Of a stretch of DNA of 64,000 nucleotides, positions 34,553-63,995 are shown one piece after another. A program made the position numbers and the translations under genes. Numbering within the stretch: position 1 is the first letter of the stretch; each line of letters begins with the position of its first letter. The DNA comes from Belliella buryatensis (GTDB lineage: Bacteria > Bacteroidota > Bacteroidia > Cytophagales > Cyclobacteriaceae), in assembly GCF_900188245.1 (NCBI RefSeq), contig NZ_FZOK01000007.1, positions 124,001 through 188,000 of the forward strand, given 5' to 3'. Below the pieces are notes generated by a model, which worked only from the letters and a program-made list of their open reading frames with translations, searched no databases and was not told the origin of the DNA.

Positions 34553-34564
34553 ACCAATTATACG

Positions 34565-35335: not shown

Positions 35336-35343
35336 GAATTAAT

Positions 35344-35384
35344 AAAGCCCTTCATACAGAGTAAGTTTGAAGGGCTTTTTTCAT
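35344..35384 (+). terminator. Terminator after sigma-factor operon
   Basis: Stem AAAGCCCTTCA (35344-35354) with TGAAGGGCTTT (35368-35378) followed by T-run. Confidence 0.85.
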
Positions 35385-35419
35385 TATGTTTTTAATGTTT
35401 TGATTTTTTCATGTATGTT

Positions 35420-35710
35420 TTATTTTAAGATTTGACTAATATCTTGTCTTCCTACAATGGTCATTATGTCTGCGAACTCACCATTTATTCTAAAATAAAT
35501 ATTATCTGAGCCACACAGACAACGTCTATATCCTTCTTTTATATAATCCATCGCTTCAAATGAATAGGGTCTTTCAGCTATTGCCTCAAAACAAATAAAG
35601 AAGGAATTAAAATACTTATCAGCTTGAACCATCCCAAAATTTCTAACTCCATAGTGATGAATCCTGATCAAATCTTCTTTAGCCGCTTGACTAAGTCTAT
35701 ATCTAGCCAT
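35420..35710 (-). CDS. parE: ParE/RelE-family toxin
   Basis: A 96-residue toxin with the ParE-like start RYRLSQAAKEDLIRIHHYG, central ADKYFNSFFICFEAIAERP and C-terminal YRRCLCGSDNIYFRI...IMTIVGRQDI. ParE toxins poison DNA gyrase; RelE members cut mRNA, and the sequence favours ParE. Its start overlaps the stop of the antitoxin gene by 8 bp, the usual arrangement. Confidence 0.85.
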   Translation of the reverse strand: MARYRLSQAAKEDLIRIHHYGVRNFGMVQADKYFNSFFICFEAIAERPYSFEAMDYIKEGYRRCLCGSDNIYFRINGEFADIMTIVGRQDISQILK

Positions 35711-37322: not shown

Positions 37323-37410
37323 GAATCGAATTTTACAAAGAAAAGCTCAATTCATCAAACTTGCTGAAAATTAAACTATCATCTTGAGCGTATTTATTGC
37401 ATACACGAGA

Positions 37411-39325: not shown

Positions 39326-39928
39326 ATAATTTTTAAATTTAAAACATTAACAAATTGATTAAAAAGCTTTTAGCGCCAAAAACTTGCACTAAACATACCC
39401 CCCCCTCTAATTAAAAGTCAAGTTTTAATTAAAAAAATATTTCAATATTTTAGATAAGTAGTTGATTTTCAGCTAGAAAAATTTTCACATAGGAATAGTA
39501 ATAAATCGTTATAAAATTATCCCCAAAATAGATTAAAAATGAATATTATGATGATAAGTGTTATTTTATTGTAAATAGGATGACTGTATTAAGAAATAAT
39601 CTGCAAAAAGCTTTAGTTATCTACCTCTAAGTCTAATTTTTTAGATAAGATTGACTTGTTATCAATTAGTGACCCGATATTATATTTGGTTATGGAATGA
39701 ATTTGGGGAAGGTTGTGACAATAATTTTTATAAAAGTGCTCTTTGCAAAACACGAACATTAGGAGTTTACCTCATTATTTTAAGTCTCCCTATTAAGACA
39801 AAAAACCCCAGAAACATCTCCAATAGATATTCCCGGGGTTTTTTTAAAACTCATATTTTCTCTGTGTCTCTGAGTGCAAAAAACTTCCGCGCACTTTGCA
39901 CCTCAGCCTAACTTCGCGAGAGTCAGAC
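39326..39928. other. AT-rich gene-free region with repeats
   Basis: About 600 bp with no convincing gene. It holds the promoter region of the small peptide gene, a poly-C run near 39401, hairpin repeat copy 3 at 39800-39845, and a dispersed-repeat block at 39860-39935 that runs into the end of htpG. Confidence 0.55.
39800..39845. repeat. Hairpin repeat, copy 3
   Basis: Arms AAAAACCCC and GGGGTTTTT with interior AGAAACATCTCCAATAGATA, related to the copies at 37411 and 37636. It could also act as the htpG-side terminator. Confidence 0.6.
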
Positions 39929-39930
39929 TT
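39880..39930. repeat. Dispersed intergenic repeat, copy 2
   Basis: Aligns with 32692-32740: both begin AAAACTT, contain GCACCT, and end GCGAGAGTC. The preceding TCTCTGTGTCTCTGAGTG is part of the same repeat type. It overlaps the htpG stop codon. Confidence 0.55.
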
Positions 39931-41812
39931 ATATCATCCCTACAGATCGCTTCACAAATTCAGTCAAGTCCTTACCTGTTAGCAAGCCTTGGGCAAGGAG
40001 TGCCAAGTCGAAAGATTGCTTGGCAAGCTTGGTTTGTTCTTCTTCGCTTTCTGCTTTGAGGATTTTGTCGATGACGCTATGATTTCCGTTGATCGCTACT
40101 TTGTAGCTATCAGGTAGTGAACCGTAGAAGCCCATACCGCCGCCTGTTGCAGCCATGTCTTTCATTCTGCGCATAAACTCATCCATCGTCACAGTCACCG
40201 GAAGTTCCTCAGGATTTAAGCCCTCCACTTCTACACTGTAAGATTTGTTGTCGATCGCTTTTTCGAAGATTTCCTTCACTTTTGTCGATTGCTCCTCAGA
40301 AAGCAAGTTCGCATAAGCATCGTCCTTTTGAATCAACTTTTCTACCACATCAGCATCTACACGCTTGAGTTGCGTTTTCTCTTCCTTGCCTTCCAAATGT
40401 TGGATAAAGTGGCTATCGATCGGAGAATCCATCACCAAGACATCATAATCCTTTTTGTTTGCTGACTGAATGAAAGCATCTTGCTTGTTGACATCCGTAG
40501 CATATAGATAGATCGTCTGCTCGTTTTTGTCCGTTTGGATAGCTTTTACTTTCTCTTTATACTCAGGAAGAGTGTAGAATTCCCCTTTGGTGTTTTTCAA
40601 CAAGACGAAATCCTTTCCTTTTTCGGCAAATTTCTCCTCAGAGATCATTCCGTACTTTACAAATAGACCGATATCGTTCCATTTCTCTTCATAGACTTTT
40701 CTATCCTTCTTGTAAAGCTCCGCCAACTTATCAGCAACTTTCTTGGTGATGTAGTTGTTGATCTTTTTCACATTTCCATCAGCCTGCAAGAAACTTCTCG
40801 ATACGTTCAATGGGATATCAGGAGAATCGATCACCCCATGTAGCAACATCAAGAATTCAGGGACAATGTCCTTCACTTCGTCCGTGATAAATACCTGTCT
40901 GCTGTAAAGCTTGATCTTGTTTTTCTGGAAATCGAAGTCATTTTTCACTTTTGGGAAATACAAGACTCCGGTCAAGTTGAATGGATAATCCACATTCAGG
41001 TGAATCCAGAAAAGCGGATCTTCACTCATTGGATAAAGCTCCTTGTAGAAAGCAAGGTAATCTTCATCTTTCAGATCATTTGGCGACTTGGTCCAGATCG
41101 GTGAAGTAGTATTGATGATGTTGTCAACTTCGATAGATTTCCACTTTTTCTTTCCTTCTTCATCTTCACCATCTTCTACACTTTCGGTCTTTGTTCCGAA
41201 CTTGATCGTAACAGGTAGGAATTTGCAGTATTTGTCCAAGATTCCCTGAAGCTTCCACTTGTCCAAAAACTCTTCGGATTCTTCATTGATGTGAAGGATA
41301 ATATCTGTACCTCTTTCTGTTCTACTTCCTTCGGAAATCTCAAATGAAGTACTTCCATCGCATGTCCATTTTGCAGCTTCAGCACCTTCTTGATAAGAAA
41401 GGGAATTGATCTCTACAGTGTGCGCCACCATAAATGCAGAGTAGAAACCCAGACCAAACTTACCAATGATTTCATTTGCATCTTTGGCGTCTTTGAATTT
41501 CTCTACGAATTCTGTAGCACCAGAGAAGGCGATCTGATTGATGTACTTTTTGATTTCTTCAGCAGTCATCCCAAGACCTCTATCGGAGATGGTGATGGTC
41601 TTTTTGTCCTTGTCGAAAGACACTTCGACGGTGGTATCACCAAGTTCTCCAGTATATTGGCCGAGGGTGGCCAATCTTTTGATTTTTTGGGTGGCATCTA
41701 CCGCATTGGAAACCAATTCGCGGAGAAAAATCTCATTGTCGGAGTATAAGAACTTTTTGATGATCGGGAAAATATTCTCGGTATGTATCGAGATGGTTCC
41801 TTTTTCCTGCAT
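39929..41812 (-). CDS. htpG: Molecular chaperone HtpG (Hsp90)
   Basis: Bacterial Hsp90, a dimeric ATP-dependent chaperone of the cytoplasm. The 627-residue protein has the GHKL ATPase motifs FLRELVSNAVDATQKI near residue 28, SDRGLGMT near 77 and GKFGLGFYSAF near 117; the middle domain has the catalytic-loop Arg region VSRSFLQADGNVKK near 328. A charged insertion after 215 (VEDGEDEEGKKKWK) is typical of the family. Its 3' end touches a dispersed repeat. No CIRCE element is seen upstream. Confidence 0.95.
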   Translation of the reverse strand: MQEKGTISIHTENIFPIIKKFLYSDNEIFLRELVSNAVDATQKIKRLATLGQYTGELGDTTVEVSFDKDKKTITISDRGLGMTAEEIKKYINQIAFSGATEFVEKFKDAKDANEIIGKFGLGFYSAFMVAHTVEINSLSYQEGAEAAKWTCDGSTSFEISEGSRTERGTDIILHINEESEEFLDKWKLQGILDKYCKFLPVTIKFGTKTESVEDGEDEEGKKKWKSIEVDNIINTTSPIWTKSPNDLKDEDYLAFYKELYPMSEDPLFWIHLNVDYPFNLTGVLYFPKVKNDFDFQKNKIKLYSRQVFITDEVKDIVPEFLMLLHGVIDSPDIPLNVSRSFLQADGNVKKINNYITKKVADKLAELYKKDRKVYEEKWNDIGLFVKYGMISEEKFAEKGKDFVLLKNTKGEFYTLPEYKEKVKAIQTDKNEQTIYLYATDVNKQDAFIQSANKKDYDVLVMDSPIDSHFIQHLEGKEEKTQLKRVDADVVEKLIQKDDAYANLLSEEQSTKVKEIFEKAIDNKSYSVEVEGLNPEELPVTVTMDEFMRRMKDMAATGGGMGFYGSLPDSYKVAINGNHSVIDKILKAESEEEQTKLAKQSFDLALLAQGLLTGKDLTEFVKRSVGMI

Positions 41813-48469: not shown

Positions 48470-48715
48470 ATGAAAAAGTGGTTTGTCATTTTATTTCTTC
48501 TTGTGAGTTTACAAGGAATCGCACAAGAGAAAATTGCCATTACGAAAGAGGATTATCAAAATTCAAAAATAGAGATGGCCGACTTGATGCGGTCTGAAGG
48601 TAAAATTTATGTGTTGGTAGGTGTGATCGGGATTGTTTTTGCAGGAATCTTGGTTTATGTAATCAGTACAGATCGCAAAGCTGCTCGATTGGAGCAATTG
48701 ATCAAAGAAAAATAG
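48470..48715 (+). CDS. ccmD: CcmD-family small membrane protein
   Basis: An 81-residue protein from the Met opening MKKWFVILFLLVSLQGIAQ; an earlier in-frame ATG adds 11 residues before this signal peptide and is unlikely. After the signal peptide a short region (EMADLMRSEGKIYVLVGVIG) leads into one membrane helix and a charged tail (STDRKAARLEQLIKEK), as in Bacteroidota CcmD. It should release holo-CcmE from CcmABC. Unlike proteobacterial CcmD it carries a signal peptide. Confidence 0.75.
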   Translation: MKKWFVILFLLVSLQGIAQEKIAITKEDYQNSKIEMADLMRSEGKIYVLVGVIGIVFAGILVYVISTDRKAARLEQLIKEK

Positions 48716-48769
48716 TATCCAATAACTTGAAATTTGCGTAAGCAAATGCTAGTAATAAATAAATAGAAA

Positions 48770-49186
48770 ATGAAAAAAGGACATATTCTAGGCTTGGGGA
48801 TCATCGCCATTGCGATCGTCATCATCGTTTCCATGTTGGGAGATGCGAGTACGTATGAAAGCTTTGCTACAGCCAAAGCGATGAAGGAAAGAGGAGAGGA
48901 CAAGGCTATTCACGTAGTAGGTCAGTTGAAAAAGACAGATTCAGGCCAAGTGGTGGGCATAGAAGTCAATGAAGATAAGACCTCTTTTTATTTTATGATG
49001 GTAGATAATGATGGTACGGAGCAGCGGGTATTTTACAACGAGCCTGTTCCTGCCGATTTTCATAGATCAGAGCAGGTTGTAGTGATTGGTGGCTACAAAA
49101 GTGATGAGCTATTTATGGCGGATAAGATCCTGATGAAGTGTCCATCCAAGTATCAGGAGAACGAAGTCAATACTGCCGGAATGTAA
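48770..49186 (+). CDS. ccmE: Heme chaperone CcmE, Cys-type
   Basis: A 138-residue membrane-anchored OB-fold protein: helix at about 5-23, then VVGQLKKTDSGQVVGIEV and VFYNEPVPADFHRSEQVVVIGGY, both typical of CcmE. The covalent heme attachment motif reads LMKCPSKYQEN, that is CxxxY instead of the classical HxxxY. CxxxY forms are known from archaea and some sulfate reducers. It lies between ccmD and ccmF, 19 bp before the latter. Confidence 0.9.
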   Translation: MKKGHILGLGIIAIAIVIIVSMLGDASTYESFATAKAMKERGEDKAIHVVGQLKKTDSGQVVGIEVNEDKTSFYFMMVDNDGTEQRVFYNEPVPADFHRSEQVVVIGGYKSDELFMADKILMKCPSKYQENEVNTAGM

Positions 49187-49205
49187 ACCTGAATTCAATT
49201 AAGAT

Positions 49206-51734
49206 ATGATCAATACCTTTGTGGGTAATCTTGGCCATTTTGCCACTATTCTTGCTTTTGTAAGTGCAGTGCTGACGGCCTTTTCCTATTACAAATATCA
49301 CCAAGCCAACGAGCTTGAGAAGTCCAATTGGAAGAATTTTAGTAGAATACTTTTCTATATTCATGCTGTAGCCTCGGTAGTCATCGCGGCGACTCTTTTT
49401 GAAATCATCTACAATCATCGATTTGAGTATTTCTATGCCTATTCTCACTCCTCTATGGCACTACCTGTGCATTACATGGTGTCGAGTTTCTGGGAAGGAC
49501 AAGAAGGGGCTTTTATCTTGTGGATAGTCTGGAATGTTGTGCTCGGTCTAGTGATTATACATACCAATAAAACATGGGAAGCACCCGTGATGGTGGTATT
49601 TGCATTGGTTCAAGCCTTCTTGGTTTCCATGATCCTTGGTGTGGTGATTGGAGATTTGAAAATTGGCAGTTCACCATTTATTCTTCTTAGAGATGCTGTG
49701 ACAGCTCCTATTTTCCAGATCAATCCTGATTTTGTTCCAGAAGATGGGACGGGTTTGAATCCACTTCTACAAAATATTTGGATGGTGATTCACCCTCCTA
49801 CTTTGTTTTTGGGATATGCTAGTACACTGGTGCCTTTTGCCTTTTTAATGGCAGGGCTTGCTTCAAAAAGATATTCTGAATGGATTCGTCCTGCGCTACC
49901 GTGGGCGATATTCTCTGCTATGGTATTGGGTATGGGGATTATCATGGGTGCTTATTGGGCCTATGTGACCTTGAACTTTGGAGGCTATTGGAACTGGGAT
50001 CCTGTTGAAAATGCGGTATACGTTCCTTGGTTGATTTTAGTAGCAGGTATTCACACGATGATTACCTATAAGAAAAGTGCCACAGCGCTCAAGACCTCCA
50101 TCGTATTGATCATTGCTTCATTTATCCTCGTGCTATATGCTACATTTCTAGTAAGAAGTGGGGTATTGGGTGACTCATCAGTTCACTCCTTTACCGACTT
50201 GGGGCTATCAGGTCAGCTATTGATTTACATGCTATTCTTTTTGTTTGCAGCTATTTTCCTGTCAGTTCGAGCATGGAAGCATATCCCAAGCTCGGAAAGG
50301 GAAGCTTCTGTATATTCAAGAGAGTTTTGGATTTTTATAGGGGCGACTACCTTGGGTCTGATGGCATTTCAGGTGATCTTACCTACCTCTATTCCGGTAT
50401 GGAATGCGATTGTTGAGAGTTTCGGTGGGATATCCAATATGGCTCCTCCAGCTGATCAAGTCGGGTTTTATACCAAGTTTCAGCTTTGGTTTGCAGTAGC
50501 GCTAGCACTATTGACAGCTGTAGGGCAGTTTTTTTGGTGGAATAAGATGGATTCTAAGACGCTGAAAGACACCTTGACGGTTCCATATGTGGTTTCTGTT
50601 TTAATTTCTGCAGCGATCATTGTTATAGGCAAAGTCTATGATATTAGCTATATCGTGGTAGTTCTTGCAGGGACGTTTACCATCGTTGCAAATGCTACTA
50701 TTCTGACTAAGTTGATAAGAAAATCTACGTTCAAACTTGCAGGAGGATCTTTGGCACATATTGGTCTTGGGATGATTTTGATCGGGGTGATGTTCTCATC
50801 AGGTTATTCAGAAGTGATTTCTTATAACCTTTCTGGCCTGACTTATAGCAATAGCTTCGAAGACGAGATCAACAAAGAACACGTCTTACTTTGGATCAAC
50901 AAGCCAACGCAGATCAAAGATTATACTGCCATCTACAGAGGTAGGCAGAAAAAAGTAGTGGGAGTGCCAGGACTTGTTGATGCTAAGTTGCTCAAGTCTA
51001 CTGGAGAGGTCAACCAAGCTATTGCTTTAGCTGATATTGTTGTCAATGGCAAAACATATCATAGGGAAGGAGAATTTGTCAATATTGTATTGGAGGAAAA
51101 TGACTACTTCAAAATAGACTACTACCAAGAAGACGATCTCAAATTTTCACTCAGCCCAATGGCACAGTATAATACTTCTATGGGCTTGATTTCTTCTCCT
51201 GATTCGAGGAGGTTTCTCAATAGGGATCTGTACACCTTTGTCTCTGTCATCAATGATTTCGATGATCCTGAGTGGAGAGAAGATGAGCTATTCGAAGTGG
51301 CACCTGGAGATACTTTTTACCTCGCTGATATGGTGACTAAGTTTGAAAGTGCTGATGTGGTCAGAGAGTTGGACGGAATGCAATTGTTTGATGGGGATGT
51401 CGCCGTCAAAGCAAAATTGACAATACAGGATTATGATGTGGAGAAGGTACTGGAACCGATATTCATCATCCGTAATAATCAAGTAGGGCGTGTTCCTGTA
51501 ATAGAAAATGAATTGGGTCTGAAGGTGGAATTGACTAATATCCTACCTGAGGAGAATAAATTCGTATTTACTGTGAATAGAAATCAGAAAGATTATGTGG
51601 TACTCAAGGCCATGGTCAAGCCACAAATCAATATCCTTTGGGCTGGAACCATCATCATGTTGATCGGATTCTGTGTGGCTATTTACAGAAGATATGATGA
51701 ATTTTCCAAAATGAGGGATAAAGGATTAGAATAA
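49206..51734 (+). CDS. ccmF: Heme lyase CcmF
   Basis: An 842-residue polytopic membrane protein that attaches heme to apocytochrome c. The WWD motif region reads FGGYWNWDPVENAVYVPWL near residue 258; HPPTLFLGYAS near 195 and HYMVSSFWEGQEGAF near 88 supply expected His/Trp positions. It is longer than the E. coli protein because of a large soluble C-terminal part (about 560-800) before the last helix. Last ccm gene here; no ccmG or ccmH follows. Confidence 0.93.
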   Translation: MINTFVGNLGHFATILAFVSAVLTAFSYYKYHQANELEKSNWKNFSRILFYIHAVASVVIAATLFEIIYNHRFEYFYAYSHSSMALPVHYMVSSFWEGQEGAFILWIVWNVVLGLVIIHTNKTWEAPVMVVFALVQAFLVSMILGVVIGDLKIGSSPFILLRDAVTAPIFQINPDFVPEDGTGLNPLLQNIWMVIHPPTLFLGYASTLVPFAFLMAGLASKRYSEWIRPALPWAIFSAMVLGMGIIMGAYWAYVTLNFGGYWNWDPVENAVYVPWLILVAGIHTMITYKKSATALKTSIVLIIASFILVLYATFLVRSGVLGDSSVHSFTDLGLSGQLLIYMLFFLFAAIFLSVRAWKHIPSSEREASVYSREFWIFIGATTLGLMAFQVILPTSIPVWNAIVESFGGISNMAPPADQVGFYTKFQLWFAVALALLTAVGQFFWWNKMDSKTLKDTLTVPYVVSVLISAAIIVIGKVYDISYIVVVLAGTFTIVANATILTKLIRKSTFKLAGGSLAHIGLGMILIGVMFSSGYSEVISYNLSGLTYSNSFEDEINKEHVLLWINKPTQIKDYTAIYRGRQKKVVGVPGLVDAKLLKSTGEVNQAIALADIVVNGKTYHREGEFVNIVLEENDYFKIDYYQEDDLKFSLSPMAQYNTSMGLISSPDSRRFLNRDLYTFVSVINDFDDPEWREDELFEVAPGDTFYLADMVTKFESADVVRELDGMQLFDGDVAVKAKLTIQDYDVEKVLEPIFIIRNNQVGRVPVIENELGLKVELTNILPEENKFVFTVNRNQKDYVVLKAMVKPQINILWAGTIIMLIGFCVAIYRRYDEFSKMRDKGLE

Positions 51735-52351: not shown

Positions 52352-52729
52352 TTATCGCATCTTCATTTTCTTTCCAGTCCTTCTTTTAAATGATCCTTGC
52401 CTTCTCTTGTTGTTTGTATAAAAGTTGTACAAGAAATTTACCGCAAATACAGCTATGGTTAAAGGAATGAAAAATCCTGCTGCCATGGTCTTGATGCCCA
52501 ATAGAATCAAAAGCGAGGCGATGATGCCCATCTTAAATGAAGTGTGACTCTCTGGATAAACTTTGCCTACCAAATAAAGGCTAAGTGATTCTATAAAAGC
52601 GACTAAGATGATGAGGTAGAAAAGCATCTGAGCCATAGTGGTATCAGCTGACCATACCACCCAAGCAAGTCCAGCAGCTACCAATATCAAGCTGAGGGAT
52701 TGAATCGATGTGTTTAATCTTTCTTTCAT
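52352..52729 (-). CDS. Small four-helix membrane protein
   Basis: About 125 residues from MKERLNTSIQSLSL; an upstream in-frame ATG adds 13 residues and is less likely. Four membrane segments and a strongly basic C-terminus (NNKRRQGSFKRRTGKKMKMR). No family recognised. It lies between the coiled-coil protein and the dipeptidyl peptidase on the same strand. Confidence 0.55.
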   Translation of the reverse strand: MKERLNTSIQSLSLILVAAGLAWVVWSADTTMAQMLFYLIILVAFIESLSLYLVGKVYPESHTSFKMGIIASLLILLGIKTMAAGFFIPLTIAVFAVNFLYNFYTNNKRRQGSFKRRTGKKMKMR

Positions 52730-52807
52730 AGGTTTTAATTTCGGGGTTATGCCAAATAAGTTATACATAAAACCCCAAATAAAAAAACATGCTTCGTTGA
52801 AAAGAAA

Positions 52808-52834
52808 AGCCCCATTTGAAATTCAAATGGGGCT
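52808..52834 (-). terminator. Terminator after dipeptidyl peptidase gene
   Basis: Near-perfect palindrome with arms AGCCCCATTTG and CAAATGGGGCT, followed on the minus strand by a T-rich tail. Confidence 0.8.
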
Positions 52835-52844
52835 ACATGAGTTT

Positions 52845-55025
52845 TTAAAGCTTTCTCTTGATGAAATCTGTCATCATATTGTATAGATGCCAGCTGGTAT
52901 TTCCACCTGAGATCCCATGATTTCTATTGGGATAATAGAAAGATTCAAATTGCTTATCTGCCTTGATTAATGCATCTACAAGGTCGACAGCATTTTGAAA
53001 ATGTACATTGTCATCTCCTGTACCATGGATCAACAACAAGTTGCCCTTCAATTTGTCGACATGGGTGATGGGGGAATTGTCGTCATAACCTGATGGGTTT
53101 AGTTGTGGAGTTTGTAAATAGCGCTCAGTGTAGATCGTGTCATAGTATCTCCAAGTCGTCACTGGTGCCACAGAAATAGCAGCCTTGAACACATCATTGC
53201 CGATCATCAATGCCAATGATGACATGTAGCCACCATAGGACCAACCCCATATACCAATTCGGGATTTATCTACAAAAGGGAGCGTGCCCAAATGTCTTGC
53301 ACCAGCAATCTGGTCTTCAGTTTCGATTTTTCCTAAGTTGGCATAGGTGCTATGCTTGAAGTCTCTGCCTCTAGCGCCTGTTCCTCTATTGTCTACACAA
53401 ACCACAATATAGCCTTCTGCGGCCAGGTGGTGATGCCAAAAGTCCCTAGTTCCTCCCCAGCTGTTGGTAACATTCTGGGAGCCGGGACCGCCATATACGT
53501 ACATCAATACAGGATATTTTTTTGCTGGATCGAAATCCGCAGGTTTGATCATATAAGCATTGAGCGAAGTGCCATCTATAGTTTTGAAATCGAAGAATTC
53601 CTTTTCAGCCAAGGCAAAATTCTTCAATTTATCTCTCAGCTCTTGGTTATCTTCCAATACTTGCAATTCTTTCCCTGCTGCAGTATTCAAAGTAATTCTT
53701 GCAGGACTATTTGCTTGTGTATGGGTAGCGATGTAGTATTTGAAATCCTTACTCATGTTGATGCTATGCGTACCGCTAGCAGGGGTTAGGATCTTTTTAT
53801 TTTTGCCATCCATGTTGATGACATAGAGGTTTCTTTCAAGTGGGGAAGCTTCCGTAGAAATGAAATAGATTTTTTTGCCTTTTTCATCTACACCGATTAA
53901 GCTACTTACTTCCCAGCTGCCGCTTGTGATTTGCTTGATCAGCTTACCAGACATGTCATGGTGGTAGATATGCTTAAATCCATCCTGCTCGGAGGTTCGA
54001 ATGAAACCTTTATCTCCTGCCAAGAAGTAGAAGTTGTCATTGTAGTTGAGATCAACGTAGGTTTTTGATTTTTCCTGTAGGATCAAATTGCTTTCTCCAG
54101 TAGCAGTATTGGCAGCAAAAAAATCAAGCTGGTTTTGAAGTCGGTTGAGTCTGATATACGCTAGGGTATTTGAAGTAGCAGTCCAGTAGATTCTAGGTAA
54201 GTAGATGTCTTTTTCTGTACCAGTGTCTACTTTGATGGTGTTTTGAGAAGCCAAATCATAGACGTGGATACTCACCTCAGCATTTTTTTCCCCTGCTTTA
54301 GGATATTTGAACCTATAATCTTGCGGGTATAGCTCGCCCCATGTTTGCATATTGAATTCAGGAACATCGGTTTCATCAAATCGGATAAAGGCAAGTTTCT
54401 TCCCATCTGGAGACCACTCAAATGCTTTGGACATGGAAAACTCCTCTTCATAAACCCAATCAGCAGCCCCATTGAGGATGTGGTTCCATTTACCATCCTC
54501 GGTTACTTGAGTGATCTGGTTATTATCAAGCCTTACAATAAAAAGGTTGTTGTCCCTCACATAAGCGACTTTGTCATTATCTGGAGATAAGGTAGCGTAC
54601 ATGATTTTTTCACCATTCACGAGCAGTTGTGCATCGCCTGTCTGAAGGTCTACCACATGGTTGACTGCCTTGCTAGATCTTCTGTAAATACGTTCAATGT
54701 TAGAGGATAGTAGCGCTTTGGTTTCATCTGCATTGAAACTATAGCTGGAGAAGTTGACGCCGATTTTTGTACCATCTATAAGGGTAGCTTCTTGCTTTCC
54801 AGTAGCGACATTGATTTTAACTACAGATGGACCTGATGCAGACCTTACTAGTGAACTATAGTACTGCCCATCTTTCATCCAATTGATACCATAGACTCCC
54901 TTCGCAGAGAATGAATTGGACTTGAATACGTCCTCTAAGCTTACTTTTTTCTTTTGTTGGGCAAGAGCCGAAAAGCACAGCATAAGCAATGCAAACAGTG
55001 CCCAAGTTTTTTTGATTTGGTACAT
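52845..55025 (-). CDS. Dipeptidyl peptidase IV family serine peptidase (S9B)
   Basis: A 726-residue exported peptidase counted from MYQIKKTWALFALLM, which opens a proper signal peptide ending ALAQQ; a longer start 66 bp upstream would bury it. The N-terminal beta-propeller contains NGAADWVYEEEFSMSKAFEW, the double-Glu motif that binds the substrate amino terminus. The alpha/beta hydrolase domain has the nucleophile GWSYGGYMS near 608, the Asp in IHGTGDDNVHFQ and the His in NRNHGISGG. It removes X-Pro dipeptides from peptides in the periplasm. Directly upstream lies a fragment of ridA. Confidence 0.92.
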   Translation of the reverse strand: MYQIKKTWALFALLMLCFSALAQQKKKVSLEDVFKSNSFSAKGVYGINWMKDGQYYSSLVRSASGPSVVKINVATGKQEATLIDGTKIGVNFSSYSFNADETKALLSSNIERIYRRSSKAVNHVVDLQTGDAQLLVNGEKIMYATLSPDNDKVAYVRDNNLFIVRLDNNQITQVTEDGKWNHILNGAADWVYEEEFSMSKAFEWSPDGKKLAFIRFDETDVPEFNMQTWGELYPQDYRFKYPKAGEKNAEVSIHVYDLASQNTIKVDTGTEKDIYLPRIYWTATSNTLAYIRLNRLQNQLDFFAANTATGESNLILQEKSKTYVDLNYNDNFYFLAGDKGFIRTSEQDGFKHIYHHDMSGKLIKQITSGSWEVSSLIGVDEKGKKIYFISTEASPLERNLYVINMDGKNKKILTPASGTHSINMSKDFKYYIATHTQANSPARITLNTAAGKELQVLEDNQELRDKLKNFALAEKEFFDFKTIDGTSLNAYMIKPADFDPAKKYPVLMYVYGGPGSQNVTNSWGGTRDFWHHHLAAEGYIVVCVDNRGTGARGRDFKHSTYANLGKIETEDQIAGARHLGTLPFVDKSRIGIWGWSYGGYMSSLALMIGNDVFKAAISVAPVTTWRYYDTIYTERYLQTPQLNPSGYDDNSPITHVDKLKGNLLLIHGTGDDNVHFQNAVDLVDALIKADKQFESFYYPNRNHGISGGNTSWHLYNMMTDFIKRKL

Positions 55026-55138
55026 ATTTATATTTGAGTTTATGATTTTCGGGAAAATTATCTGAACGTAAAAAAAGTCAATTATTAACAATTAACCCAA
55101 ACTTTTACAGCAGAGGTTTTTATTTCAATTCAAGCCAA

Positions 55139-55299
55139 TCAAACCAGCTCAAACATAGCCTCAATTTCTACGGGAATATTATCTGGAAGTGAATTGAAAC
55201 TCACTGCACTTCGAGTTCCGATACCATTTTCCTCACCCCATACTGCTGCAAAAAGTTCACTACAGCCATTGATGACATAGGGATGCTTTTCAAATCCAT
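55139..55299 (-). pseudogene. Partial duplicate of ridA 3' end
   Basis: Aligns without gaps to 61162-61322 with 11 differences in 161 positions (about 93 percent). It encodes the last 53 or so residues of the RidA-like protein in intact frame (GFEKHPYVINGCSELFAAV to the stop) and then diverges abruptly at 55300. Same orientation as the intact gene, so the two copies are direct repeats around the SusCD block. Confidence 0.9.
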
Positions 55300-55473
55300 G
55301 TCTGAAAGCCTTTCTTCCAGATCAAAAAAAGTCTTGTAATGAAGGAATTTCTTCAAAACGCAAAGTATTAGTCCACCTCTCAAGTACTCTAAGGCATAAT
55401 ATAGGCTAATAGCTATTATATATGCTCACATGGAGAATAAAAGAGAGGCGGTCTCATACATCTCTTAAAATTT

Positions 55474-55501
55474 AAGGCTAGTTGATTTCTCGGCTAGCCT
55501 T
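55474..55501. terminator. Hairpin inside MITE-like element
   Basis: AAGGCTAG with CTAGCCTT around a 12 nt loop, followed by TTTCTTG. Could end transcripts on the plus strand. Confidence 0.4.
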
Positions 55502-55620
55502 TCTTGTTTAACTCAAAATGCTTATTTGGAACACTTTAAGACTATTTACTAACCTTTAACGGAGACAAAATTTTAAAAAAAGAAAAGAAGAATTTTTCGA
55601 CCTAAAGTCAAAAAAATAAA

Positions 55621-55643
55621 GGCCGAAATCTAAGAAATCGGCC
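55621..55643 (-). terminator. Hairpin downstream of the SusCD operon
   Basis: GGCCGA with TCGGCC around an 11 nt loop, followed on the minus strand by a short T-rich stretch (TTTATTTTTTT). A plausible terminator for the SusC-SusD-lipoprotein transcript. Confidence 0.5.
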
Positions 55644-55736
55644 TCCATTGCTTAAAATTAGCTGTCAGAATTTACATTTTGAGACAGCCTCTTTTTTATT
55701 ATTGAATCAATATTAAAAACTTGTGGCAATAAGTAA

Positions 55737-56210
55737 TTACCTCACGATATTCATACCAATTCTCTTTTTATTATTGCTAGCAGCAACAATATCAGTAGAC
55801 TCAAGTTCGAAAACTAATCTTACGGCCTGAGTATTTGTCAATTCAGGAATATTTATAGTTAGAAATCCAAATGCTTCGTTAGCAGGAATTCTAACATTCA
55901 AACCTTCAGGTAAAGAGTAATGAACTCCTTCAACTGCTGTAGTGCTTTCTGCCACTACTCTCACAGGAATAGTCAAATCCTGTCCATGTAAACCGCCAAA
56001 AAGATTGATTCTGAAAGTTCTGTTTCCTGCATTGTTTCTTAATTGTGGCAGCAAAGGATAGTTTACGCCAGGAGCGTTATTTCTAGCCACAGCGTCCTCG
56101 AATTCAACAGTTAATGTTCTGAAGAAATGTTGTTCAGAGTAATCCTCAAAGCAACTCGTTGCTACAAATGACACCATTAGTGCAACTAAAATTACATATA
56201 TTCTTTTCAT
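55737..56210 (-). CDS. SusCD-associated lipoprotein (DUF4843-like)
   Basis: A 157-residue lipoprotein (lipobox VATSC, Cys20). The body reads RTFRINLFGGLHGQDLTIPV, VEGVHYSLPEGLNVRIPANEA, FGFLTINIPELTNTQAVRLVFEL, a Calx-beta/DUF4843-like pattern frequently found after SusD genes. It is 14 bp downstream of susD and probably a surface glycan- or protein-binding accessory. The call rests on pattern and context. Confidence 0.7.
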   Translation of the reverse strand: MKRIYVILVALMVSFVATSCFEDYSEQHFFRTLTVEFEDAVARNNAPGVNYPLLPQLRNNAGNRTFRINLFGGLHGQDLTIPVRVVAESTTAVEGVHYSLPEGLNVRIPANEAFGFLTINIPELTNTQAVRLVFELESTDIVAASNNKKRIGMNIVR

Positions 56211-56224
56211 AGCATTAGTCTTAA

Positions 56225-57634
56225 TTAATAGCCTCTATTTTGAACTAGATTTGTGTTGACATCAATTTCACGGTTTGGAAGATTTCCAAGAACTCTAAAA
56301 TCTGTAAATTCTAAAACACCGTTCATTTTTGTGATATCTCTACCTAATCTCTTTAGGTCAAAGAACCTGTGACCTTCAAATGCAAATTCCCTTCTCTTTT
56401 CTGCCAAGATTTCTTCAAGGACTTGAGGACCGGTAATGTCCGCCAAAGCCACTAAACCTGCTCTAACTCTAAGTTTATTAATTTCTGTCAAAGCAGATCC
56501 AAACTGACCCAAATGATAATGAGCTTCAGCTTTGTTGGTAATTGCTTCTGAATAACGGATTACTGGTACGTTATCAAGGTTAGCTACACCATTCTTACCT
56601 GCAAATTTATTAATCTCAGTCAAAGCGGAGTTGACTGCAAGTCCTCTTTGCTGCAATTGTCTTCTCAAGTCTTCTTCTGGGAACGCTGCTACGAGCCCAT
56701 CAGAGAACACAACGTTACCATGAGATGCGGGGTTCGGATCATTCAAGAAGTTTCTAGTCATAAATGTCGCTCTCAACGATTCATTTACTCCGATGTTATC
56801 AGGAGTAGTAAATACAATCTCAAAGAATGACTCCGGATGAATTGGTGTTCTCCAACCACTAACAGGATCACTTGGGAACGTAGCTCCACCGCTTGCCATA
56901 GCTAAGTCAGCCTGCACGATTGAACGTTGATAATCTCCTCTGTAAAGAGCCACCCTAGAGAAAAGAGCAGCAACAGCTCCAGCAGTCACAAAATGAGGAC
57001 TTCTTTGATTTCCTAAGTTTTGTAGCAAAGAGTAAGATTCCTCCAAATCGCTATAAATAAAATCATAAACTTCTGTAACACTTGCTCTAGCAGGATAAAT
57101 TACATCAGCAACTGCCAATGAACCATTTTCGAGAATAGGAACACCACCATTATTGAATTGTGGAATATCTGCCGTAGGATCATAAGCATACACTCTTGCC
57201 AAATCATGGTAAAGCAATGCTCGAAGGAAAAGCACCTCTCCTCTTATTCTATTTCTAAATGTAGTAGGCAATTCAACTTCACCTAACGCTTTCAGAACTA
57301 AATTGATTTGGTTAATTGTAAAATATGCAGTGCCCCAGTTACTCATATGAGATCCTGGCTGATTATTGAATTGACCTACCAAGCGGTTACCAGCCCCTGT
57401 ATTGAACGCATTATCTGCAAGAAGTTCTGGGATGGCAATGAAATCCCTACCATAAAGAGCTACAGCTCTAAACCTGGCATAAATTCCATTAGTTGCAGCA
57501 GTAATAGCTTCTTCGCTGCTCAAAGCTGTCGCTGAGTCAATCGATTGTCTTGGTTCTACATTCAACCACTCAGCACATGAGCTTATGGTTAAGATAAGCC
57601 CTATTGCAAAACATTTTAATATATTCTTTTTCAT
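56225..57634 (-). CDS. SusD/RagB-family outer-membrane lipoprotein
   Basis: A 469-residue surface lipoprotein (lipobox TISSC, Cys20) starting the mature part with AEWLNVEPRQSIDSATALSS, as SusD proteins do. TPR-like helices follow, and the C-terminal motif EILAEKRREFAFEGHRFFDLKR is the family signature. It captures substrate and acts as the lid of the SusC channel. It lies 9 bp after susC. The substrate cannot be read: no glycoside hydrolase or peptidase is inside the operon, although a dipeptidyl peptidase is nearby. Confidence 0.93.
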   Translation of the reverse strand: MKKNILKCFAIGLILTISSCAEWLNVEPRQSIDSATALSSEEAITAATNGIYARFRAVALYGRDFIAIPELLADNAFNTGAGNRLVGQFNNQPGSHMSNWGTAYFTINQINLVLKALGEVELPTTFRNRIRGEVLFLRALLYHDLARVYAYDPTADIPQFNNGGVPILENGSLAVADVIYPARASVTEVYDFIYSDLEESYSLLQNLGNQRSPHFVTAGAVAALFSRVALYRGDYQRSIVQADLAMASGGATFPSDPVSGWRTPIHPESFFEIVFTTPDNIGVNESLRATFMTRNFLNDPNPASHGNVVFSDGLVAAFPEEDLRRQLQQRGLAVNSALTEINKFAGKNGVANLDNVPVIRYSEAITNKAEAHYHLGQFGSALTEINKLRVRAGLVALADITGPQVLEEILAEKRREFAFEGHRFFDLKRLGRDITKMNGVLEFTDFRVLGNLPNREIDVNTNLVQNRGY

Positions 57635-57643
57635 GACGATTAA

Positions 57644-60600
57644 TTAAAAACCAATTTGAACACCTAACGTATACGCCCTCGTTTGAGGCAATGCACCTTG
57701 GGTAGAAGTAAAGCTGCCTTCTCCAATTACCAATTCAGGATCATATCCTTTCCATGCAGTCCAAGTCAAAAGGTTAGCACCTTGGGCATAAACCTGAGCA
57801 GATCTCAATTTCATTCTAGAAAGGAATTGTCTAGGGATATCATAATTTATTGCCAACTGTCTCAAACGAATGAAGGAAGCATCTTCCAAGAAACGTGAAC
57901 TTCCTGCATTTTTATTTCTAGCGCCAGTTTCGGCACCACCACCAATAGGTCTTGGAACATTAGTAACTTGACCAGGCTCGGTCCAGCGATTAGCATAAAC
58001 ACTCTGCAAACTGTTCCTGTTATCCTGTCCATTTCTAGACCAGAACTGCATTTGACCAGCGTTGCTTAACTCTCTACCATAGTCATAGATAAACAATGCA
58101 CTTACAGATAACCCCTTGTATGTGAATGTATTTGTCAACCCACCAAAAAAACTACTCAGTGAATTTCCAAAAGTATAAAAATCACCTGGAGAAACTGGGT
58201 TGTAAGTCACATCACCATTAGCATCAAACCACATTGGCTTGCCTGTAGCGGAGTTTACACCTGCATATTTTGCAGTAAAGTTAGTTCCTATTGAATAACC
58301 AACTCTTACAGATTGATTACCTGGAAGGACATCATCACCACCCAAATCAAGTACTTCATTATTGATAAATGTAATGTTGAAATTAGTAGTCCAAGAGAAA
58401 TCTCTTTTAACAATGTTTCTTGTTTGGATTTCAATTTCAACACCTTCATTTTTCAATAAACCAACGTTTTGAGTTACGTTGCTGAACCCCGAAGTCCAAG
58501 GAAGAGGAGTATCCAATAATAAGTCTTTACTCAATCTTCTGTAGACTTCCAAAGCTCCACTTACTCTTCCTCCAAAAAACGCATAGTCTATACCTATGTT
58601 AGTAGTAACATTTCTTTCCCATCTCAAGAACGTGTTTGCTATTGCAGATGGTCTGATACCTGGCTCTTGATTGTAGTTAGCTGCACCCAAACCTTGATAC
58701 AAACCTCTCGAGTCAAAGTTACCTATAGCATCATTTCCTGTCTCTCCGTAACCAGCTCTCAACTTGATCTGATCAATCCATGATTTATCAGTCAACCAGC
58801 CTTCTTCATGAAGGTTCCAACCAGCAGAAATCGCAGGGAACCAACCGAATAAATTATCTGCTCCAAATCGAGAAGATCCATCGTATCTTAATACACCACT
58901 CACCAAGTATTTTTTGTTAAAATCGTAATTCACTTGGGAGAACACACCGACTCTTCTAAAACCAGTCCAGTTAGCAGAAGCTGAAGTAATCACAGCAGCA
59001 GCTTGCATTGTTCTAAACTGGAAAGTAGGAAATCCTTGAGCGTTGGCTGATGATAACTCTTGAGAATCACTTCTATATTCAGCACCAAGCAACACAGTCA
59101 TATTATGACCTCCATCAAACTTTTTGTTATAGTTTAATGTCTGATTAGTGATAAAGTTTACATTTTGTCTGTTGGCAATACCTAATGAACCTTGTACCGC
59201 AAAACCTGAACGGGTTCTTGGGTCAGTGTAAGTATTTTGGTCAACAACTCTGTAATCTAGTCCATAGAAACTTCTGAAGGTCAAGTTGTCTAATATTTTG
59301 TAAGTGACATTAAAGTTACCTACAATGGATTTTGTTCTACTTTCTAAATCATTCAACAAAGTCTCAGAAATAGCATTTCTATCCATATTTCCAGGAAAAC
59401 CAGCAACAGGAGCATTATAAGACCCATCTTCCAAGAATATCGGAATCCAAGGCAACATCATAGGAGAAGAATATTGAGGTGCTGCAAAAGCTCCAGTAGA
59501 ACCCGAACTTCCCGTAGAACCATTCTGAAGAATGCTTGCCAAGTTCACATCGAAACCAAAACTTAAACGCTTGTTTTCTTGGTGATTCAATCGGAATTTA
59601 GCAGTGGAGCGCTGAAAATCAATACCGACTACGTTACCTTCTGTATAATTGTGAGAACCTGAGATCAAGAATGTAGTCTTATCATTACCTCCACTCGCGC
59701 TCAATTCAATATTTTTAGTAGTACCTGTTCTAAACGCTTCTCTCTGCCAATCGTATGTAGGTAATGCTGCAATATCAGCATCTGAGAAATCAGCAGGAAA
59801 ACCTAATTGAGGCAATAAAATAGCTCTGTTCGCAGCCGCAGTTCTATTTGGAAACTGATTATTGAAAGCAGTCAGCCTTGCATCAAAAAACTCTTGGCTA
59901 TTCATCATCTGTACTACTGGCATTGGCTCAGTGATACCAGTAAACACATTTAGATTATATTGCGTCTTACCTGCTTTACCAGACTTGGTAGTTACCAAGA
60001 TTACACCGTTTGCCGCCTGAGCTCCATATATAGATGCTGCAGCACCATCTTTAAGAACTTCAATAGACTCAATATCATTAGTATTTAAGAATGCCAAGGG
60101 GTTACTTGCTGTATTGGTAGCTGAAGAAGACATATTCAATTGAACGCCATCTACAATGATCAAAGGCTGAGAACCTGCTGTGATGGAACCAACTCCTCTG
60201 ATTTGGAATGTGACTGGACCACCTGGCACGCCATTGTTTGCCATTACATTCACCCCAGATATCTGACCTTGTAGCGCTCTATCCATGGATACTACTGGAA
60301 AATTTTGAATTACTTCTCCTTTCACAGAAGACATCGCACCAGTAATAGCTCTCTTTTCTTGAACTCCATAACCTGTCACCACGAACTCGCTTAAATCAGA
60401 TAAATCTTCTTGGAGAATGACGTCTAATACGCTTCTATTACCAACATTGAGTTCTTGTCTTTTAAAGCCAATAAAGGTAAATACCAATACATCATTATCG
60501 TTCACTTGTAATGAAAAGTTACCATCTAAATCACTTGATGTTCCTCTAGTAGTTCCTTTTACCAATATGCTAACACCTGGAATAGGCTCACCGTCTTCAC

Positions 60601-60820
60601 CTTTGACCACTCCACGTATATTTCTGTTTTGAATATCTGCCCATGTCAACTCAGTACTTGAGTATAAGTGGTTTTCTGGGGTCACATTTTTGTTGTTGCG
60701 AACAGTCGCAAAATTTTCTCCTGATAAGAAAAGTAATGTCCCTGTCAATGCAACAAATGCCCTGATTTTTGGTTTAAAACCAATAAAGGTTTTATCACAA
60801 GATTGGTATTTGTTTGTCAT
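57644..60820 (-). CDS. SusC/RagA-family TonB-linked outer-membrane receptor
   Basis: A 1058-residue TonB-dependent importer. After a signal region, residues 68-140 form a carboxypeptidase-D-like domain (IRGVVKGEDGEPIPGVSILV, GTTRGTSSDLDGNFSL). The TonB box region and plug follow (EFVVTGYGVQEKRAITGAMS, FQIRGVGSITAGSQPLIIVD, IESIEVLKDGAAASIYGAQA, NGVILVTTK), then the 22-strand barrel ending in Phe. It is the first gene of the SusCD operon. No ECF sigma/anti-sigma, hybrid two-component or FecR gene sits beside it, so control must be elsewhere or constitutive. Confidence 0.95.
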   Translation of the reverse strand: MTNKYQSCDKTFIGFKPKIRAFVALTGTLLFLSGENFATVRNNKNVTPENHLYSSTELTWADIQNRNIRGVVKGEDGEPIPGVSILVKGTTRGTSSDLDGNFSLQVNDNDVLVFTFIGFKRQELNVGNRSVLDVILQEDLSDLSEFVVTGYGVQEKRAITGAMSSVKGEVIQNFPVVSMDRALQGQISGVNVMANNGVPGGPVTFQIRGVGSITAGSQPLIIVDGVQLNMSSSATNTASNPLAFLNTNDIESIEVLKDGAAASIYGAQAANGVILVTTKSGKAGKTQYNLNVFTGITEPMPVVQMMNSQEFFDARLTAFNNQFPNRTAAANRAILLPQLGFPADFSDADIAALPTYDWQREAFRTGTTKNIELSASGGNDKTTFLISGSHNYTEGNVVGIDFQRSTAKFRLNHQENKRLSFGFDVNLASILQNGSTGSSGSTGAFAAPQYSSPMMLPWIPIFLEDGSYNAPVAGFPGNMDRNAISETLLNDLESRTKSIVGNFNVTYKILDNLTFRSFYGLDYRVVDQNTYTDPRTRSGFAVQGSLGIANRQNVNFITNQTLNYNKKFDGGHNMTVLLGAEYRSDSQELSSANAQGFPTFQFRTMQAAAVITSASANWTGFRRVGVFSQVNYDFNKKYLVSGVLRYDGSSRFGADNLFGWFPAISAGWNLHEEGWLTDKSWIDQIKLRAGYGETGNDAIGNFDSRGLYQGLGAANYNQEPGIRPSAIANTFLRWERNVTTNIGIDYAFFGGRVSGALEVYRRLSKDLLLDTPLPWTSGFSNVTQNVGLLKNEGVEIEIQTRNIVKRDFSWTTNFNITFINNEVLDLGGDDVLPGNQSVRVGYSIGTNFTAKYAGVNSATGKPMWFDANGDVTYNPVSPGDFYTFGNSLSSFFGGLTNTFTYKGLSVSALFIYDYGRELSNAGQMQFWSRNGQDNRNSLQSVYANRWTEPGQVTNVPRPIGGGAETGARNKNAGSSRFLEDASFIRLRQLAINYDIPRQFLSRMKLRSAQVYAQGANLLTWTAWKGYDPELVIGEGSFTSTQGALPQTRAYTLGVQIGF

Positions 60821-61161
60821 AACTTAATCGATTAATAAATTTAAATATTATTTACGGAAATTTTTTGAGGTTACTACAGCACCTCTTTTTTACTCAATTA
60901 TCTTTGACTTTTCTTTTTATCACTACCTCCTTTCATTTCATTGTTTTACACAAAAATCGATTGCCAGATTAAAATTAAAAATTATTTCCAAAAAAAAATT
61001 GTCTAACTGTTAAGAACAATGATTTTTATTATAAAGGATAGCTAAAATGCTTTGAATGGATGATGATTGATTGAATTATAATGATGAAAAGCAGATTTTA
61101 AGAATCTGACCGATCACTAATCCTGAATCTTTGGGCTTTATTTTTTAATTTTTAGGTATTT
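60821..61161. other. Upstream region of susC
   Basis: About 340 bp between ridA and susC, AT-rich, expected to hold the susC promoter. The nearest -7-like word on the minus strand (GATTTTTG near 60953) deviates from TAnnTTTG. A short hairpin CAGATT/AATCTG at 61092-61108 may weakly terminate ridA. No gene. Confidence 0.45.
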
Positions 61162-61629
61162 TCAGACCAGCTCAAACATAGCCTCAATTTCTACCGGGAT
61201 ATTATCTGGAAGTGAATTGAAGCCTACTGCACTTCGAGTTCCTATACCATTTTCCTCTCCCCATACTGCTGCAAAAAGTTCACTACAGCCATTGATAACA
61301 TAAGGATGTTTTTCAAATCCATCAACACAATTGACCATACCAAGTACTTTGATGACACACTTAACTCTATTTAAAGAGCCTAGATTGGCTTTGATGGTGG
61401 CTAGCATGGCCAGACCAACTTGTCGGGCAGCCATTTTGCCACTTAGTAAATCTAAGTCTTTGCCTACTTTGCCAATGATCAAACTCCCATCTTCCTTGAA
61501 AGAACCATGACCTGATAGGTAAAGGTATTTACCATCTACAAGACAAGGACGGTAGACGCCAATTGGTTTGGGTGGTGGAGGTAGGACTAATCCTAAAGCT
61601 TCAAAATTTGATTCAGGGCTGTTCATCAT
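61162..61629 (-). CDS. RidA/YjgF-family protein
   Basis: A 155-residue member of the RidA superfamily starting at ATG 61629 (MMNSPESNFEALGL); a longer TTG start is unlikely. Family features are GVYRPCLVDGKYLYLSGHGS, ARQVGLAMLATIKANLGSL, the VKVLGMVNC-like strand, and RSAVGFNSLPDNIPVEIEAMFEL, with the Arg residue that binds substrate carboxylate. RidA proteins deaminate reactive enamine/imine intermediates; the longer subgroup here may differ. Its last 53 codons are duplicated at 55139-55299. Confidence 0.88.
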   Translation of the reverse strand: MMNSPESNFEALGLVLPPPPKPIGVYRPCLVDGKYLYLSGHGSFKEDGSLIIGKVGKDLDLLSGKMAARQVGLAMLATIKANLGSLNRVKCVIKVLGMVNCVDGFEKHPYVINGCSELFAAVWGEENGIGTRSAVGFNSLPDNIPVEIEAMFELV

Positions 61630-61676
61630 TTTGTTTTTTAAATTGAGCAAAAGATAGTCAAAAAATTAAAGAGCAC

Positions 61677-63995
61677 TTAATTTTTGATCAATTTCAATAC
61701 CTCAAGATGCTTACCATCATAAGCATGTATCAGATACATCCCAGTTTGCAGTGAATCTCCATTGAAATTATTATTAAAATCCTCGTAACCACATATGTTT
61801 ATCAGGATTCCATTAGAGTCATAGATTTGGATGGTGGAAGATGCTGGATCAAAATAGTTAGGCAGGGTCAGGTGTAATTGTTCGGTTTTGACTGGATTGG
61901 GATAGATACTCGCTTTGGGACTGAATTCGTTTAGTCCCTCTAGCCGAAAGACTCGGCTGTAAACGCTCTTACCTTCAAGGTTGGTGAATTTGATTCTAAA
62001 GAATATTCTTCCTTTTGGTTTTTCCCAGGAGTATAGGAAGTGGTGGACTAAAATATCTTTTTCAGAAGGTAGCTTTGCAACGCTTTTGAAATGCTCTACT
62101 TGGTCTATGGCCTTTTCGATTTCAAAGACTCCTTGCTCTTCACTGGCTGCTATTTTCCAAGAGATATTTACCTCACCTGATTTCCAGATTGCTTTATGAT
62201 TAATAAAATTAATTGGTAGGATAGAAAGATATCGGTAACTACCAATGGTGAAAGTTTGATTATTGAGCTCGTCATAAGTTAGATTTCTTCTAGCCCAAAG
62301 TGTATCTGCATCCACTCCGGGCAAATGTAGACCAGGTGCGGGGATGCCATTGCTGACAATCCTCAAATCGTCTACTGCATCGACTATGAGATTTTCTGCA
62401 GCCAATTCCATTTCGATGGGGTCTGACCCGGCTGACAGACCTTCGATTTCGAAGTAAGAGTTGAGTTGATAGAGAATGGGTGTACCGTCCGTATCATCGA
62501 AGTCTGGCTCCCAATTTGAGCCAGGAATCTCAATGTACCGCACTTGAAAGTCACCACCAGGAGATGTCCCAGATAGTCGTAGCCTCCTCACTCCACCCTG
62601 ATAGATATCTTCAAAAGGAAAATGTGCATTTTCATTGGTCAATATCGAAGGGAAATTATTATAAAAAAGTCTGTGGATATTTCTCCAAGTACCACCTAGG
62701 TATCTAAATACACCAGCCCCATCTGTATTGACATACAGGTCGTAGCCGTTGAAGTCAATTTGCCCACTTTCCATGATCCAATTACCTAGACTGCGGAGAT
62801 CGTTGAAAGTTACAATTCTGCCGCTTGGTTTGTTTACATGTATTTGGCTTAAGTCAAGTTCCCAATTGACAATTTGCTGCTCTCCCATACCTTGAAATCT
62901 TAGCAAGGTTGGGCCATCACTTGGGGCTGGCCCTGTTAGTCTGCCAATATCCCCGGTGAGAAAAACTGAATCGGGAAGAAGTTTTACGGCAGTATTTTCA
63001 AAAAAAAGGTTATGATAGGTTTTTGGATTGCCAGAACTGGCAAAAGTAGTGCTGATTAAGCGTTGTGTACCTGCATTGGAGCGGTAGTAGGTATTGCCTT
63101 CAAAGCGAAATTCAGCCACATCCATTTGCGGGTTATTGCCAAGCAGTACGAGATTAGCTCCTGGCTTCAGGTGAAAAAGTGCTGCAGGGATCGTATTCGT
63201 TCGTCTGATAATCTGCTCTTGAGGAGGTCCAGGGCATTGAGAGATAAAGGTAGCGCCGGGTTCTATGATAAAGTCTCCATAAGGGCCTGTACCATTGAAC
63301 ATCGCTTGTACATTATAAGAAAAAGTAGAGCAAGCTGGAATACCATCTGTGTTAAGTGTTTGAACTACTGTTCCCGATTCAATAATGAAAGCATTTGCTT
63401 TGAAGCCTGAATTGACGGTGAGTGATTGTCCAGGATTTGCTCTGAATCGAACTTGGAATCTACTGTTAAGTGTATTCGCACTCCAAGAAGATCTATCTAC
63501 TACATTTCTACTGTTTCCAATGAAAACAATACTTCCTGTTTGTGGATAAATCCAATCCGTAGTGGCATTGGAGACATTATTGATCGTGAACTGCCCTAAT
63601 TCCAATCTAAAAGCTCTCAGCGCTCCATTAACTCTAAGTTCAAAAGTTTGCAAGTTCAAAAGCCTTCCTGGGCTAGCGGCACTAAAAAGATAAAGGTTAT
63701 TGACTGATTCATTTGCTCTAATTCTGATTTCATTGCCTTGCTGAAAAAACACATTATTCCCAATTTCAGGCTTAGTAGCAGCGGGTAGCCATGCTAACCC
63801 GTCCCACCTTTCCCAAATAGCAGGATTATCAAAGTCCCCAGAACTGATTGTTCTGTAATCTCCTATTTCTAAGGCTATCTGAGAAAAGCTAACGTAGGAA
63901 TATCCCATCTCTAAAAAAATAAACAAGATAATCCTGTAAATTCGTGCTGAATTTAAGGTCAACTGCGTGCCATATTTTCTTTTCAAAAAGTCCAT
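61677..63995 (-). CDS. T9SS type A sorting-domain secreted protein
   Basis: A 772-residue protein that begins 5 bases from the window end, with a signal-like segment (RIYRIILFIFLEMGYSYVSF) after a basic start, so it is probably complete but a start farther upstream cannot be excluded. The body is repetitive beta-rich, like G8/autotransporter-style repeats (PAIWERWDGLAWLPAATKPE, NNVFFQQGNEIRIRANES). A predicted Ig-like part precedes the C-terminal sorting domain ASIYPNPVKTEQLHLTLPNY ... TGMYLIHAYDGKHLEVLKLI, the type A signal for T9SS export and cell-surface attachment. Function unknown. Confidence 0.8.
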   Translation of the reverse strand: MDFLKRKYGTQLTLNSARIYRIILFIFLEMGYSYVSFSQIALEIGDYRTISSGDFDNPAIWERWDGLAWLPAATKPEIGNNVFFQQGNEIRIRANESVNNLYLFSAASPGRLLNLQTFELRVNGALRAFRLELGQFTINNVSNATTDWIYPQTGSIVFIGNSRNVVDRSSWSANTLNSRFQVRFRANPGQSLTVNSGFKANAFIIESGTVVQTLNTDGIPACSTFSYNVQAMFNGTGPYGDFIIEPGATFISQCPGPPQEQIIRRTNTIPAALFHLKPGANLVLLGNNPQMDVAEFRFEGNTYYRSNAGTQRLISTTFASSGNPKTYHNLFFENTAVKLLPDSVFLTGDIGRLTGPAPSDGPTLLRFQGMGEQQIVNWELDLSQIHVNKPSGRIVTFNDLRSLGNWIMESGQIDFNGYDLYVNTDGAGVFRYLGGTWRNIHRLFYNNFPSILTNENAHFPFEDIYQGGVRRLRLSGTSPGGDFQVRYIEIPGSNWEPDFDDTDGTPILYQLNSYFEIEGLSAGSDPIEMELAAENLIVDAVDDLRIVSNGIPAPGLHLPGVDADTLWARRNLTYDELNNQTFTIGSYRYLSILPINFINHKAIWKSGEVNISWKIAASEEQGVFEIEKAIDQVEHFKSVAKLPSEKDILVHHFLYSWEKPKGRIFFRIKFTNLEGKSVYSRVFRLEGLNEFSPKASIYPNPVKTEQLHLTLPNYFDPASSTIQIYDSNGILINICGYEDFNNNFNGDSLQTGMYLIHAYDGKHLEVLKLIKN

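Follow-up and report, generated by a model that had tools for sequence, protein, structure and literature searches.

A direct repeat of the 3' end of a gene brackets a SusC-SusD operon in the 64-kb window, i.e. the whole stretch of DNA analyzed: does it mark the site where a mobile element integrated, or did it arise by another route? The last 161 bp of the gene, called ridA in the preliminary description, were indeed found twice in the same orientation, at 55139-55299 and 61162-61322; the copies align ungapped with 150 of 161 positions identical, in line with the 93% first reported. The match is far beyond chance: the two copies are the sole places listed when the repeat is searched in its own genome (E 1.6e-79 and 8.8e-65), and they form the sole direct repeat of at least 60 bp reported across the window. 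Between them lie susC, susD, a gene for a DUF4843-like lipoprotein, a 270-bp element and 133 bp without known relatives (Table 1).

Table 1. Features of the locus, in window coordinates; identities refer to G004, the relative used for comparison.
Feature	Position	Strand	Evidence
G004-like tract: peptidase gene, upstream spacer and Rid 3' fragment	52690..55299		2560/2610 identical to G004
Dipeptidyl peptidase IV-type S9 peptidase	52845..55091	-	PF00930, PF00326
Orphan 3' end, most likely of a second Rid allele (last 52 codons and stop)	55139..55299	-	160/161 to G004 gene
Proposed non-homologous joint	55299..55300		abrupt end of identity with G004 Rid gene
133-bp sequence, origin unmatched in genomes searched	55300..55432		no relatives at E 0.001
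Internally deleted IS1182-family element ("MITE")	55433..55702		both ends match full-length G004 element
DUF4843-like lipoprotein	55737..56210	-	PF16132 E 9.4e-8, just below cutoff
SusD	56225..57634	-	PF07980, PF14322
SusC TonB-dependent transporter	57644..60820	-	TIGR04056, 817 bits
Intact Rid-family gene, most likely background-type allele	61162..61650	-	PF14588 45.6 bits
T9SS-sorted protein	61677..63995	-	PF18962; itself mosaic vs G004

The intact gene scores above the cutoff of 35 bits for PF14588 (YjgF_endoribonc) and below that for PF01042 (21.1 bits, cutoff 27.3), so that "Rid-family" is a safer name than "ridA". The gene content of the interval agrees with the preliminary description: the TonB-dependent barrel of SusC and the SusD protein are recognized by their Pfam and NCBIfam models, while the DUF4843 match of the accessory lipoprotein falls just under the cutoff (32.2 bits, cutoff 34.5). 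Order and domains are those of a standard SusC/SusD pair with accessory lipoprotein; no glycoside hydrolase or regulator is present among the ORFs of the interval, and the substrate therefore cannot be named.

The three genes are arranged in the same order, susC-susD-lipoprotein, in G005 (two loci), G006, G007 and two Sphingobacterium species, with SusC proteins 57-62% identical; the nearest SusC relatives thus include members of another family. In a tree built from 15 of the 16 matches of one search (own SusC included) and 7 of the 37 loci of another, the SusC of the window groups with one G005 copy and with Sphingobacterium (support 100/99), the fork among them being weak (85/78). This grouping suggests that the trio moves laterally between families. 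Of the earlier proposal of a mobile or island-borne nutrient cassette, lateral mobility is retained as likely, while integration at a gene end, as detailed below, is not supported.

The small element had been described as MITE-like. It aligns in two parts, 55433-55530 (91%) and 55515-55701 (88%), with opposite ends of a G004 element of 1.85 kb (G004:C14:105788-107637); the parts overlap by 16 bp at the deletion point. The G004 element encodes a 513-aa protein, identified as an IS1182 transposase (NF033551, 436 bits, cutoff 270). The window copy is thus an internally deleted IS1182-family element: it differs from the full-length form in lacking a transposase (no ORF of at least 70 aa is listed within it) and has no other copy in its own genome, where only matches of about 20-30 bp at E 0.03 or worse were found. 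A MITE family is accordingly rejected for this sequence (about 55433-55702). Further copies related to the IS1182 element occur in G003. For the adjacent 133 bp (55300-55432), no match at E 0.001 other than itself was found in 39 genomes (own included; up to 17 candidates scored per genome), and for the 27-aa open stretch within it, a search of 98 genomes gave nothing convincing (best E other than itself 0.34).

Is there a genome in which the interval is empty? The preliminary description had proposed to look for a single Rid gene directly before the peptidase gene, and this arrangement is found in G004, which on the genes compared is the closest relative and is the one close relative in the comparison. 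There, 48 bp separate the peptidase ORF from the Rid stop codon; in the window, 47 bp separate it from the stop of the fragment, and the two peptidases are 99% identical as proteins. The SusCD block is therefore a presence/absence segment, although an empty arrangement in G004 is also expected under models other than gene-end integration. Within the genus, the peptidase is present in 8 of 8 genomes, the Rid protein in 4 of 8 (31 of 59 genomes overall, own included), so that in 4 of the 7 relatives the search gave no Rid match at all, and adjacency as in G004 is seen in 1 of the 7. In G003, about 66 kb separate the Rid gene from the peptidase gene. In G001, the SusCD pair found between them is another one, with a SusC 31% identical and the opposite orientation, and is accompanied by a gene that, judging from its N-terminus, we take to encode a D-Ala-D-Ala ligase-like protein. 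The same SusCD genes between Rid gene and peptidase, with no duplicate, would have spoken against integration; the G001 pair, being different, neither refutes nor confirms it.

Two side observations concern these neighbors. The ligase-like gene has the Rid gene as its neighbor in G001 and G003; in G006 and, judged by its N-terminus, in G027, it lies next to the peptidase gene. It is placed elsewhere in G000 (G000:C50:137990-138970) and in G004 (G004:C39:382202-383182), where, comparing 4-kb loci, 1076 bp, roughly the gene itself, align at 95% while the flanks do not. As called, the peptidase ORF starts with a TTG. Similarity to other members of the genus sets in around residue 22 of that ORF, close to an ATG at 55025, the probable start codon, which would leave about 113 bp between the gene and the orphan tail.

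The two sides of the locus differ sharply in their affinity to G004. Over all aligned blocks used (45.2 kb), the contig containing the window is 87.6% identical to G004 (39551/45151). The tract 52690-55299, whose left limit was placed by eye after viewing the identity profile, reaches 98.1%; without it, the background is 87.0% (36991/42541), and none of 482 other 2.6-kb windows (overlapping, step 50) attains 95%, the maximum being 93.1%. Of 12 aligned blocks, 10 enter this background; 33712-34914 (76.7%) and 35223-35467 (70.2%), both lower, were omitted, which raises it. Within the tract, 54865-55299 matches G004 at 434 of 435 positions, plus one single-base gap, and 52690-54548 at 1836 of 1859; a 316-bp patch between them (54549-54864) falls to 91.8%. 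The intact copy departs from G004 at 10 sites, and at each of them the fragment carries the G004 base. Its one private change affects a base identical in ten other aligned sequences, as may be expected for a decaying remnant.

On the other side, identity to G004 is near or below background, at 84.2% (276/328) for the intact Rid body and 81.8% (1071/1309) for the half of the T9SS gene next to it; the last 161 bp of the intact gene match G004 at 151 positions. Third codon positions, compared for the peptidase, Rid and T9SS genes only, are identical to G004 in 712 of 749 cases for the peptidase (95.1%), 65 of 109 for the intact Rid body (59.6%) and 277 of 424 for the 3' part of the T9SS gene (65.3%): given the distance between the first two values, conservation of the protein alone does not explain the tract. 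The last diagnostic site in the fragment lies 14 bases from the joint, and the first difference of the intact body from G004 lies 17 bases beyond it. Allele switch and structural joint thus coincide at a resolution of about 30 bp. Most likely, judging from these alignments, the two ends of the locus derive from two alleles: the fragment is of G004 type, the intact gene of background type.

Taken together, these data make it probable that the duplicate is the scar of a recombination between two alleles of one locus, in an HFIR-like exchange between sister lineages. One parent would have been G004-like, its Rid gene lying next to the peptidase gene; in the other, the SusC-SusD-lipoprotein genes and the decayed IS1182 copy would have followed a Rid gene of background type. 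The exchange would have fused them through homology at one side, either near 52.69 kb or within the T9SS gene near 62.96 kb, and through a non-homologous joint at 55299/55300, which would have truncated one Rid allele 161 bp from its end, stranding the tail upstream of the peptidase gene. At the joint, identity to the G004 Rid gene ends abruptly. In HFIR-type products, the non-homologous joint often features microhomology. Allele switches without structural change, such as the homologous boundary of an HFIR product should show, are found both near 52.69 kb and near 62.96 kb. A single exchange, homologous on one side and non-homologous on the other, produces structure and allele switch together; we infer that one such event made both here, by a mechanism with one-sided homology.

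The direction of the exchange may be read in two ways, about equally probable. The G004-like peptidase side may have entered a strain already having the Rid gene and the SusCD genes, with a left boundary at about 52.69 kb; or the Rid-SusCD segment may have entered a locally G004-like strain, displacing its Rid gene. The right boundary would then lie in the T9SS gene at about 62.96 kb, beyond which a stretch of 1.4 kb (62960-64360, 1330/1401) again shows 94.9% identity; 9 of 611 1-kb windows elsewhere reach 95%. This flank is suggestive, but is clearly less G004-like than the peptidase side. Its high identity, together with the 91.8% patch in the left tract, indicates more than one exchange here, or a patchy one.

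Similar changes are observed elsewhere in the region. The T9SS gene (61677-63995) is itself divided, its 3' half being 81.8% identical to G004 and its 5' part belonging to the 94.9% tract. Short tracts of about 93-98% identity lie in lower background at 36745-37344, 39800-41199 and 48500-49400, suggesting, on alignment grounds, repeated exchange between the two lineages. The stretch 10396-33524 aligns to the same G004 contig in inverted orientation, in two blocks, at 85.0%, compared to 87.6% for all blocks used.

Some evidence runs against a single exchange between two uniform alleles. The tail of the intact gene is closer to G004 (151/161) than its body (267/318; Fisher P 0.002), also at third positions (43/53 compared to 65/109), a contrast not expected if the gene were one uniform allele. 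Elsewhere, 174 of 1848 comparable window pairs show contrasts at least as large; since they are that common, the contrast is read as local mosaicism. It would also fit a separately acquired tail, as implied by two of the other explanations.

In the first of these, the duplication came first, e.g. when a circle with the Rid tail and the SusCD genes inserted by a single crossover, or by unequal exchange, and a later exchange with a G004-like strain overwrote peptidase and fragment. The visibly mosaic region, with its several G004-like tracts, makes overwriting plausible, and insertion of a circle could leave the intact gene with a tail unlike its body, as the contrast above hints. A report on transformation (PMC3784515) also describes duplications arising in its course, by unequal crossing-over between repeats. 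The overwriting tract, however, would need to have ended in the final 13 bases of the fragment or right at its edge, because a diagnostic site 14 bases before the joint is still of G004 type. This takes one more event as well as a coincidence, and this course of events is rated unlikely.

Integration at the gene end, the reading given in the preliminary description, supposes that an element used the Rid 3' end as attachment site and restored the coding end, its integrase being since lost. A gene-end direct repeat bracketing probably mobile genes, the empty arrangement in G004 and the differing tail of the intact gene, which the element could have brought, are all as it would have them. A gene split and restored in this way, however, should leave its displaced tail and its intact body equally distant from G004, or an allele switch at some unrelated place. 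What is observed is an identity to G004 of about 98% for fragment, spacer and peptidase and of 84.2% for the intact body, with the switch at the joint; the copies do not behave as border repeats from one attachment site. A tail of 161 bp is also long for an attachment core. No integrase or recombinase lies between the repeats, as already noticed in the preliminary description: the ORFs of at least 70 aa listed there are susC, susD, the lipoprotein gene and short ORFs antisense to susC and susD. Nor does the pattern recur, a point that the preliminary description had proposed to check: among nine other SusC/SusD loci (six with a related trio, three with another SusC/SusD beside the peptidase or Rid gene), none has a direct repeat of at least 60 bp within the stretches examined, and a family of SusCD cassettes bounded by gene-end repeats is rejected. 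The related trios of G005, G006, G007 and Sphingobacterium are without a Rid gene in the stretches inspected. Gene-end integration is accordingly disfavored and considered very unlikely.

There is hardly more to be said for the Rid-peptidase boundary as a preferred landing place of SusCD genes, where a recombinase may use the Rid tail: the different pair found there in G001 would fit, but the probability is very small. An assembly artefact, joining sequences of two strains in one contig, would explain why the joint links two allele types, but is highly improbable, as the joint is internal to a contig of 213 kb, the genome has ratings of 100% for completeness and 0.12% for contamination, and several other allele switches in the region occur without structural change, as real recombination predicts.

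A recombination scar between two alleles, the preferred explanation, has published parallels. In HFIR, as outlined in PMC3240628, linear DNA is added at a homologous anchor, with one homologous and one non-homologous end; the locus shares this proposed configuration and differs in that the process is deduced from one finished product. Among the literature considered, the nearest parallel is the displacement of T6SS effector modules in Vibrio cholerae, for which HFIR was proposed (PMC5361080): there too an anchored, one-sided exchange can leave an orphaned (shifted-back) 3' end downstream. The present exchange would instead involve a Rid gene and a SusCD trio, without identified genes for effectors or immunity proteins, and its two possible polarities are about equally probable. 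Finally, clusters of short donor segments following single transformations, described in PMC13344027, fit the patchy tracts observed here.

The locus is best read as ordinary genome mosaicism, and nothing in it requires an integrase. Accessory genes flanked by a directly repeated gene end are not necessarily an integrative element: comparing each copy of the repeat with a relative can reveal two alleles joined by exchange, and scars of this kind, resembling attachment sites, could be miscalled as islands in scans of single sequences. For the SusCD trio, the locus adds one example of its presence in one of two sister species.
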